Shown here in pieces: positions 18,660-19,962 of a stretch of DNA of 64,000 nucleotides (positions are counted from its first letter, which is position 1; each line of letters starts with the position of its first letter). The notes below the pieces were generated by a model. That model had not been told where the DNA came from. It was given only the letters and a program-made list of their open reading frames with translations, and made no database searches. Location of the stretch: positions 124,001-188,000 of the forward strand of contig NZ_VIRM01000003.1 of NCBI RefSeq assembly GCF_006874475.1. The letters are read 5' to 3'. Position numbers and translations under genes: made by a program. The stretch is from Microbispora hainanensis. Lineage in GTDB: Bacteria > Actinomycetota > Actinomycetes > Streptosporangiales > Streptosporangiaceae.

Positions 18660-18734
18660 CCTGCCATCCGCCCGGAGGACGGCCACACCGGCCCCCGGGG
18701 GGTGGGGATGCGGCACGATCAAGGGGGCGTGCGC

Positions 18735-18740
18735 TATATT
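18735..18740 (+). promoter_or_regulatory. -10 box of the aroF leader transcript
   Basis: TATATT is a near-perfect -10 hexamer in an otherwise GC-rich stretch and ends seven bases before the ATG of the leader peptide at 18748. This predicts an RNA starting at or within a base of that ATG, so the leader peptide would be translated from a leaderless message. No clear -35 is seen. Confidence 0.6.
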
Positions 18741-18747
18741 GCGTCAC

Positions 18748-18819
18748 ATGCGCACCGCTTGGTCGTTTTGGTATGGCGACGGACCCGTGAGGACCGATCG
18801 CCTCCATGCGCTGCGCTGA
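18748..18819 (+). CDS. Aromatic-rich leader peptide of the aroF attenuator
   Basis: A 23-codon open frame starting MRTAWSFWYGDG: two Trp, one Phe and one Tyr within six codons, a composition expected of a ribosome-stalling leader for aromatic amino-acid supply. It ends in TGA 13 bases before the strong intrinsic terminator at 18833-18876 and 93 bases before aroF. No Shine-Dalgarno is present; the -10 box at 18735 suggests leaderless initiation. Short supply of any aromatic aminoacyl-tRNA would stall ribosomes early and could favour an antiterminator. The function is inferred from arrangement. Confidence 0.78.
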   Translation: MRTAWSFWYGDGPVRTDRLHALR

Positions 18820-18832
18820 CAGCCACGGCGAA

Positions 18833-18876
18833 CGAAGGCCCCGGGTCCACACGGACCCGGGGCCTTCGTCGTTTTT
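18833..18876 (+). terminator. Intrinsic terminator of the aroF attenuator
   Basis: CGAAGGCCCCGGGTCC pairs perfectly with GGACCCGGGGCCTTCG across a four-base ACAC loop (16 bp), followed by CGTTTTT. This is the only hairpin with a true T-tract that I noticed in the window. It lies between the leader peptide stop and the DAHP synthase start, so it can only serve to abort transcription before aroF. Confidence 0.85.
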
Positions 18877-18912
18877 CCCCGACCCGCACGATTCACAGCG
18901 ACAGGAGTCATC

Positions 18913-19962
18913 ATGGTCATCGTCATGGCCCCCGAGGCCACGCAGGACGACGTCGAGGCGATCGCCGACGTCGTGGCCGCCGCCGGAGGGGAGGCGTTCG
19001 CGAGCCGCGGCGTGAACCGCACGATCATCGGCCTCATCGGCGACGTCGAGCAGTTCGCCGCGCTGAACCTGCGCGCCATGCCGGGCGTCGCCGACGTCGT
19101 GCGGGTCTCCACGCAGTACAAGCTCGTGAGCAGGGAGAACCACCCGCAGCGCTCCACGGTGACCGTGCGCGGCGTCCCGATCGGCCCGGACACCGTCACC
19201 CTGATCGCCGGCCCGTGCGCCGTCGAGACGCCGGAGCAGACGCTGGAGGCCGCGCTGATGGCCAAGGCGGCGGGCGCGACGCTGCTGCGCGGCGGCGCCT
19301 ACAAGCCGCGCACCTCGCCGTACGCCTTCCAGGGGCTGGGCGAGAAGGGCCTGCGCATCCTGGCCGACGTACGCGAGCAGACCGGTCTGCCGATCGTCAC
19401 CGAGGTCGTGGACGCCCACGACGTGGCGCTCGTCGCGTCGTACGCCGACATGCTGCAGGTCGGCACCCGCAACGCGCAGAACTTCGCGCTGCTGCAGGCC
19501 GTGGGCGCGGCGGGCAAGCCGGTCATGCTGAAGCGGGGCATGACGGCGACCATCGAGGAGTGGCTCATGGCGGCCGAATACGTCGCCCAGCGCGGCAACC
19601 TCGACATCGTGCTGTGCGAGCGCGGCATCCGCACCTACGAGCCCGCCACCCGCAACACGCTCGACATCTCGGCGGTCCCGGTCGTCCAGCGCCTGTCGCA
19701 CCTGCCGGTGATCGTGGACCCGTCGCACTCCGGCGGCCGGCGCGACCTCGTGCTGCCGCTGTCGCGGGCCGCCGTCGCGGTCGGGGCGGACGGCCTGATC
19801 GTCGACGTCCACCCCCACCCGGAGCAGGCCCTGTGCGACGGCCCGCAGGCCCTGGTGAACGGCGACCTGGACGCCCTCGCGGCGGTCATGCGCGACTTCC
19901 CCCCGCTGGTCGGCCGCACCGCCACCACCGGCGCGACGACGCCGTCCGCGATCTCCGCCTGA
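18913..19962 (+). CDS. aroF: 3-Deoxy-7-phosphoheptulonate synthase (DAHP synthase, class I beta)
   Basis: First enzyme of the shikimate pathway, condensing phosphoenolpyruvate with erythrose 4-phosphate. Residues 1-85 form the ferredoxin-like ACT-type N-terminal domain of the AroF/AroA-beta class; the TIM barrel follows with [36 protein letters not shown] and the [14 protein letters not shown] metal-binding segment. Length is 349 residues. AGGAG precedes the ATG. Expression is predicted to be controlled by the leader peptide and terminator immediately upstream rather than by a repressor. Confidence 0.95.

Follow-up and report, generated by a model that had tools for sequence, protein, structure and literature searches.

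Organization of the aroF upstream region

We have examined a 64,000-nucleotide stretch of the Microbispora hainanensis genome (assembly GCF_006874475.1, contig NZ_VIRM01000003.1, positions 124,001 to 188,000; the whole of this stretch is called the window below, and positions are counted from its first base), and describe here the region immediately upstream of aroF, which carries a short open reading frame (ORF) and a putative transcription attenuator. The aroF gene (18913–19962, on the forward strand, as are all of the features of this locus) is the predicted regulated gene, and it encodes a 3-deoxy-D-arabino-heptulosonate 7-phosphate (DAHP) synthase of the Bacillus subtilis and Thermotoga maritima kind with a ferredoxin-like domain; its product matches PF00793 and PF18152, scores above the cut-offs of NF006421 and TIGR01361, and matches PDB entry 1rzm with an E value of 5.8e-109. 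We take it to be a type I-beta enzyme.

Direct reading of the sequence and translation of the ORF show that an extended −10 element, TGCGCTATATT (18730–18740), is followed by seven bases, the ATG of the leader ORF (18748), 23 codons, a TGA stop codon (18817–18819), a hairpin, a run of five T residues, an AGGAG ribosome binding site (18903–18907), and the aroF ATG at 18913. The leader ORF (18748–18819) is not preceded by a Shine-Dalgarno sequence and encodes the peptide MRTAWSFWYGDGPVRTDRLHALR, in which TGG TCG TTT TGG TAT (18760–18774) provides four putative control codons, Trp5, Phe7, Trp8, and Tyr9, with a serine between the first two. A first-pass annotation of this DNA had noted the TATATT hexamer at 18735, the ATG at 18748, the 23-codon frame with Trp-Ser-Phe-Trp-Tyr at codons 5–9, the TGA, the T5 run, and the DAHP synthase, all of which we recover; the hairpin that it described is perfect, as stated, and has 17 pairs rather than 16, with a 4-nt loop.

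The −10 hexamer (TATATT, 18735–18740) has no clear −35 partner, and a scan for sigma-70 consensus promoters found no consensus two-hexamer promoter at the locus, so that the promoter is assigned from the −10 box. Its spacing predicts a transcription start at 18746–18748, at or no more than 2 nt from the A of the leader ATG.

The leader is conserved in Microbispora and beyond

All 15 Microbispora genomes have the leader. The residues FWY are invariant in 15 of 15, codon 5 is a tryptophan codon in 13 and a tyrosine codon in two, and the peptide YGDGPVRT that follows the aromatic run is invariant within the genus. The 11-base −10 element is identical in all 15 genomes while the adjoining sequence diverges, and the 7-base spacing between box and ATG is fixed; the bases before the box, and those between the terminator and the Shine-Dalgarno sequence of aroF, are variable.

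In the wider GTDB family (Streptosporangiaceae), 141 of the 150 genomes drawn have an AroF match at an E value of 1e-100, and we compared 151 ortholog upstream regions, 15 from the genus and 136 from further members of the family. An ORF of 9–45 codons in which some six-residue stretch includes three or more aromatic residues is present in 149 of the 151, compared with 2.9% of 1510 dinucleotide-preserving shuffles and none of 11 paralog upstream regions. One of the 149 (L089) qualifies only by way of an unrelated chance ORF, its own leader-like frame having just Phe and Tyr. When a −10 box (TANNNT) ending 6–8 nt before the start codon is also required, the count is 147 of 151, with no instance in either the 1510 shuffles or the 11 paralog regions. 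No such ORF is present at L155 or L161 (contig end), and at L101 the box has another spacing. By this comparison of sequences, the conservation of the leader is not due to chance.

The spacing between the box and the start codon is 7 nt in 102 of 148 leaders, 8 nt in 25, 6 nt in 20, and 9 nt in one. A Shine-Dalgarno-like 4-mer at positions −15 to −4 is found at none of the 148 leader starts and at 133 of the 148 aroF starts, a comparison in which the leader count is lowered by the required −10 box, which overlaps the stretch scanned; the earlier statement that the leader has no ribosome binding site agrees with this. With a −10 box 6–8 nt before the start codon and no Shine-Dalgarno sequence, the leader ORF has the sequence signs of a leaderless message, and it is probably leaderless, with the 5′ end of the mRNA at or next to its ATG.

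In other families of the class, leaderless-looking aromatic ORFs precede DAHP synthase genes in 22 of 57 upstream regions, from 10 families, under a looser definition without a shuffle control, in which two aromatic residues suffice if a −10 box lies at 5–9 nt (L262 and L275 have two). The remaining 35 gave no leader, including two (L268 and L282) that end at a contig edge. On the sequence evidence, the putative aroF leader attenuator is old and well conserved.

Putative control codons

Among 118 distinct family leaders, 112 have Phe, Trp, and Tyr codons within their first 16 codons, and six have Phe and Tyr only. The choice of codon within the cluster differs sharply from that of the gene it precedes: the first 16 codons of 125 distinct leaders contain 155 TTT and 78 TTC, and 120 TAT and 68 TAC, whereas the 77 aroF genes of the named loci contain 460 TTC and no TTT, and 358 TAC and two TAT, such that only 2 of 820 end in T. 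The bias lies at the end of the aromatic run: A or T is the third base of the final aromatic codon in 112 of 125 leaders (90%), and of 433 of 2223 leader codons that are not aromatic. In the 22 leaders from other families we count 17 TTT, 19 TTC, 18 TAT, and 13 TAC codons (no gene baseline was computed for these). The preference for UUU and UAU possibly reflects slow wobble decoding, or alternatively freedom from pairing. That control codons should be rare is an old proposal, and both the theory and its exceptions are treated in PMC1183508 (this and all of the sources below are cited from the portion of their text available).

Three predicted RNA structures

The segment 18747–18880 folds with a predicted free energy of −73.1 kcal/mol (z −4.99), and none of 200 shuffles folds as well. 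An intrinsic terminator is predicted at 18832–18876, with 17 perfect pairs in a stem at 18832–18869, a 4-nt loop at 18849–18852, and T5 at 18872–18876. Within the leader ORF, GGACCCG at 18781–18787 (region 2, the putative antiterminator strand) is a copy of the top of the terminator 3′ arm, and can pair with CGGGTCC at 18842–18848 (region 3, the top of the 5′ arm), which is common to antiterminator and terminator. The minimum free energy fold contains a further hairpin, P1 (18775–18802; GGCGACGG.CC with GG.CCG.UCGCC), as well as pairing of the leader start with the stop region. P1 overlaps region 2 and would exclude the antiterminator, and we regard it as a protector and a possible pause hairpin. 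The leader stop lies in TGCGCTGA (18812–18819), a candidate RNA polymerase pause site 12 nt after P1, which is where hairpin-pause geometry would place it; 88 of 125 distinct leaders retain this sequence, and 107 of the 125 have CGC as their final sense codon.

Base-pair conservation was examined in an alignment of 65 leaders, out of 88 picked as diverse (L118, L141, L146, and L162 were dropped at that stage); because 23 were excluded by hand as divergent or rich in insertions and deletions, the pair counts describe the main groups only. The terminator is paired in 98.9% of cells, has double changes at 6 of 13 pairs, and lies above shuffles on every measure. The antiterminator is paired in 93.1% of cells, one of its pairs being G-C in 32 leaders, A-U in 23, G-U in six, and unpaired in four. 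For P1 the corresponding figure is 83–85%, with one pair that is C-G in 38 leaders and G-C in 27, one to two double-changed pairs in all, and a lower part that is shifted by one base between the GDGP and YRP groups of leaders. In both antiterminator and P1, the covariation score and the fraction of cells paired exceed those of all 500 shuffles. Sliding one partner by 1–3 columns lowers the paired cells to 10–60% for the antiterminator, 19–58% for P1, and 17–68% for the terminator.

The antiterminator strand is also constrained in position: of 135 distinct leaders, 111 have its first base 5–7 nt beyond the final aromatic codon. The pairing score between region 2 and the terminator arm averages 19.4, compared with 16.3 (standard deviation 3.1) for synonymous recodings of the same peptide and 17.0 when arms are swapped between species. 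(L111 and L112, in which the terminator finder failed, were dropped from these spacing and recoding analyses and from the folding described below, and L163 and L146 from the folding.) In the leaders of other families, matching helices occur with other letters, and the best helix begins 5–7 nt after the last aromatic codon in 9 of 22.

The putative terminator, antiterminator, and protector hairpin are therefore all conserved, the latter two with thinner covariation. The first-pass annotation had suggested that its proposal would fail if close relatives kept the terminator and not the leader; what we find is that leader, protector, antiterminator strand, and terminator are kept together. These parts, their conservation, the base changes that preserve helices, and the spacing are direct readings of the sequence.

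A model for control of aroF

We consider it very probable that aroF is controlled by a ribosome-mediated transcription attenuator of the trp type, a confidence that we place slightly lower than we otherwise would, given how few independent changes underlie the covariation of the antiterminator and P1. The locus has a short ORF with clustered codons for end-product amino acids, an intrinsic terminator between that ORF and the gene, a predicted antiterminator that has one strand in common with the terminator and covaries with it, and a protector hairpin that would exclude the antiterminator. Beyond these features, we infer where transcription starts, that the leader is translated, that the polymerase pauses, in which direction control runs, and that it depends on amino acids.

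Transcription would start at the A of the leader ATG or beside it, letting a ribosome load on the 5′ end without a Shine-Dalgarno sequence. P1, together with the conserved TGCG 12 nt downstream, may pause RNA polymerase and let the ribosome catch up. With charged Trp-, Phe-, and Tyr-tRNA all in supply, translation would continue to the stop codon and P1 would form behind the ribosome and hold region 2; the terminator could then form and aroF would be off. If any one of the three charged tRNAs is short, the ribosome would wait at codons 5–9 and cover the 5′ strand of P1, and region 2, lying just ahead of the entry channel, would pair with region 3, such that no terminator forms and aroF is read. 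A distance of 5–7 nt from the A-site codon to a helix is about that of the ribosome entry helicase, and a ribosome at the last aromatic codon would thus leave region 2 free while covering the P1 5′ strand. Consistent with this, when leaders are masked to 5 nt past the last aromatic codon, the probability that region 3 pairs with the leader in equilibrium folds exceeds 0.5 in 118 of 118.

A number of observations weigh against this model and should be set beside it. In the equilibrium folds, extending the footprint to 9 nt past the last aromatic codon reduces the leaders with region 3 pairing above 0.5 to 78%, with the value falling to 0.61, and pairing exceeds 0.5 also in 87% of leaders with a ribosome at the stop codon and in 68% without a ribosome; the values for the window's own leader are 0.73 (5-nt gap), 0.63 (9 nt), 0.98 (at stop), and 0.64 (no ribosome). 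As modelled, equilibrium folding alone yields no off state. The model would therefore require that P1 form first and that the ribosome separate regions 2 and 3, which is inferred. The covariation is also limited: the outermost antiterminator pair is missing in 22 of 64 leaders, double changes occur at only two of its pairs, one of them from a single sequence, and the double-changed pairs and pair types do not rise above shuffles (87/500 and 426/500 for the antiterminator, 500/500 and 500/500 for P1), with double changes in both helices mostly tracking one split between two leader groups. Among leaders of other families, the best helix is at least 11 nt from the last aromatic codon in 6 of 22, and 8 of 22 DAHP synthase leaders have no Trp in the cluster. 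Finally, in Corynebacterium glutamicum the aroF operon is unaffected by tyrosine availability despite a Tyr codon in its leader (PMC11802643).

The failure of the equilibrium fold to switch by itself with ribosome position is what would be expected if the hairpin were a constitutive or untranslated terminator that insulates aroF or sets a fixed read-through, the ORF being a by-product. We think this very unlikely, as the ORF is accompanied by a correctly spaced −10 box in 147 of 151 upstream regions, the antiterminator strand lies inside the ORF, and the Trp content varies with the enzyme regulated (see below). Just as improbable, in our judgment, is a switch of the TnaC kind, in which the conserved peptide (FWYGDGP or FYGYRP) would arrest the ribosome together with a free aromatic amino acid or a pathway metabolite, and codon identity would count only through the peptide. 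The invariance of YGDGPVRT within Microbispora fits such a peptide, but the changes from GDGP to YRP are accompanied by matching changes in the terminator and P1, region 2 and P1 show almost no variation at wobble positions among the distinct leaders, W, F, and Y replace one another as the first aromatic residue, and the leaders of other families differ in their C-terminal halves. Least probable of all is a leader that binds a protein or metabolite (a riboswitch, T-box, or TRAP-like element) with an incidental short ORF. The strength of the predicted structure could be accommodated by it, but a scan of the locus against Rfam gave no match at a family's gathering score, and the conserved parts are explained by the ORF, P1, antiterminator, and terminator of the attenuator model.

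A related element upstream of chorismate mutase genes

A covariance model built from the element was searched in the 15 genus genomes and in 296 genomes of the class. The aroF copy scores 105–111 bits in each of the 15 Microbispora genomes and is the only copy above 50 bits, the matches elsewhere reaching at most 38 bits. Some match at an E value of 0.01 is present in 166 of the 296 genomes, many of them to the terminator part alone. Full-length matches of 43–63 bits occur in one further family (f18), no genome of which is among the AroF matches, and whose nearest DNA in a plasmid collection is from Streptomyces in three of three records.

In 18 of 18 such loci (L346–L363, 17 of them from the Streptomyces-like genomes of f18 and one from family f37), the downstream gene is a chorismate mutase gene by tblastn, with CM_2 identified in two of the proteins. 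The chorismate mutase is a stand-alone enzyme, preceded by a leaderless-looking leader with Phe and Tyr codons, P1, an antiterminator strand, and a terminator, and in four long loci a GMP-synthase-like frame was seen by eye beside it. The leaders mostly read TFLFTYG or TFVFTYG, with 18 TTT, 16 TTC, 17 TAT, and 6 TAC codons (again with no gene baseline computed), and the antiterminator helix begins 6–7 nt after the last aromatic codon in 16 of 18. A Trp codon is present in 2 of 18 of these leaders and in 112 of 118 DAHP synthase leaders, for which Fisher's p of 4e-14 ignores descent and is no valid test, since the difference may reflect one or two events. Chorismate mutase leads to phenylalanine and tyrosine and not to tryptophan, and the leader codons thus match the branch of the pathway. 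Twenty stretches fetched from model matches include 14 chorismate mutase elements and one aroF with a leader (L366); at L364, L365, L367, L368, and L369 there is no such leader adjoining a pathway gene, and these look like chance or terminator-only matches.

One way to view these elements is as a single ancient actinobacterial switch placed before different enzymes of the aromatic pathway, with codons re-tuned for each branch: Trp, Phe, and Tyr before DAHP synthase, with which the pathway begins, and Phe and Tyr before chorismate mutase, past the branch to Trp. The last sensing codons, the almost unused UUU and UAU, would leave a 5–7 nt gap to the antiterminator strand and so form a tuned three-input gate, with ribosomes loading on a bare 5′ end. 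We regard this broader proposal as evenly balanced between being right and being wrong.

Comparison with known leader peptides

The closest reported counterpart is the aroF leader of C. glutamicum (AroR), which RNA-seq revealed as a short aromatic leader peptide preceding the gene for a DAHP synthase (PMC4046766, PMC3890552, PMC11802643). It is reported to contain Phe-Tyr-Phe (PMC4046766, PMC11802643), and phenylalanine limitation raises read-through by ribosome stalling (PMC11802643). The AroR control residues include no Trp, in contrast to the W-S-F-W-Y seen here; the mode of action appears to be alike, but we do not class the two as one element. The enzymes probably differ too, in that we take C. 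glutamicum AroF to be of type I-alpha. A motif in Acholeplasma (uORFC-13-1; PMC8632094) is similar, with an upstream ORF containing phenylalanine and a terminator before aroF, although it belongs to another phylum and only phenylalanine is pointed out in the text available.

The trp, trpS, ilv, leu, and thr leaders of Streptomyces and Corynebacterium also have a leader ORF followed by a terminator (PMC1262725, PMC8079986), and complementary triples common to antiterminator and terminator are described for trp attenuators (PMC1262725), corresponding to GGACCC / GGGTCC / GGACCC here. The same source, in the portion available, reports no conserved structures upstream of other amino acid pathway genes, which differs from the aroF element, and the available list of Streptomyces lividans leaders names none before a DAHP synthase or chorismate mutase gene (PMC8079986). 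The C. glutamicum ilvBNC leader shares an upstream ORF without a ribosome binding site, the protector, antiterminator, and terminator logic, and the sampling of several amino acids (PMC10272879, PMC11857589), but has branched-chain codons and precedes another gene. The 1:2 / 2:3 / 3:4 logic of the Escherichia coli trp and pheA attenuators (PMC11802643) is like that proposed here.

The E. coli ilvGMEDA attenuator follows the same logic and samples several amino acids, and the trp, pheA, and ilvGMEDA leaders have 5′ untranslated regions with Shine-Dalgarno sequences; to our knowledge none of these three samples all three aromatic residues. The first-pass view of the element as an aroF attenuator with a probably leaderless leader peptide containing Trp, Phe, and Tyr codons stands, but a leaderless start is not unusual for an attenuator: for S. 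lividans, seven of eight leader peptides are described as leaderless (PMC8079986), in C. glutamicum the leaderless fraction of mRNAs is 33% (PMC3890552), and reference titles give an ilvBNC leader peptide without a ribosome binding site in C. glutamicum (in PMC4046766) and leaderless cysteine attenuators in mycobacteria (in PMC13236596). It is common in actinobacteria for the leader peptides of amino acid genes to be leaderless. The accompanying remark that attenuators usually sense one amino acid needs softening, as ilv leaders with several residues are known.

Among the literature matches listed, whose coverage leaves out most subscription papers, there was no report of such an element before DAHP synthase in actinobacteria other than Corynebacterium or before chorismate mutase in Streptomyces, of a combined Trp, Phe, and Tyr readout, or of control codons favouring UUU and UAU.

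Other genes and elements

All 15 genus genomes also encode type II DAHP synthases, and two weaker AroF-like matches are present in the genome containing the window. We found no comparable aromatic ORF before the three type II DAHP synthase genes whose upstream regions were examined, or at two of the three chorismate mutase matches of the window genome. On another contig of this genome (C197), a 402-codon frame (L003, 1117–2322) resembles DAHP synthase in its first part and chorismate mutase in its second, each scoring below the curated cut-offs, and may encode a diverged fusion of the two enzymes. Contig JAJAYQ010000147.1 (L234), whose title names a Spirochaetaceae metagenome-assembled genome, carries an actinobacterial-type aroF with 81% identity, and is probably misbinned.

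A second attenuator-like leader is present on contig C35 of the window genome (L370, 1457–1507; model match at 67475–67526), where the ORF MKRACLTTTPETVPAR, with four Thr codons, is followed by a terminator and then thrS (TIGR00418 above cut-off). This leader resembles S. lividans thrL (PMC8079986), and its stop region, GCGCTGACA, is similar to the one in the aroF leader. The only Rfam match at gathering score in the window is a c-di-AMP riboswitch (RF00379, 51552–51706, reverse strand, 77.5 bits).

Implications

Leader-peptide attenuation itself is well known; what appears to be new here is the Trp, Phe, and Tyr leader before DAHP synthase and the codon logic across branches of the pathway. 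The 151 ortholog upstream regions in one family, and 22 more in others, constitute a deep sample of attenuation seemingly without a Shine-Dalgarno sequence, and the contrast between leaders of DAHP synthase genes and those of chorismate mutase genes amounts to a natural experiment in how codons are matched to pathways. A single tRNA serves each of Phe and Tyr, and with UUU and UAU used in a position-specific way, the old question of codon choice in attenuators becomes testable for these amino acids. In actinomycetes that make aromatic-derived compounds, the leader would be a simple point at which to release precursor supply.
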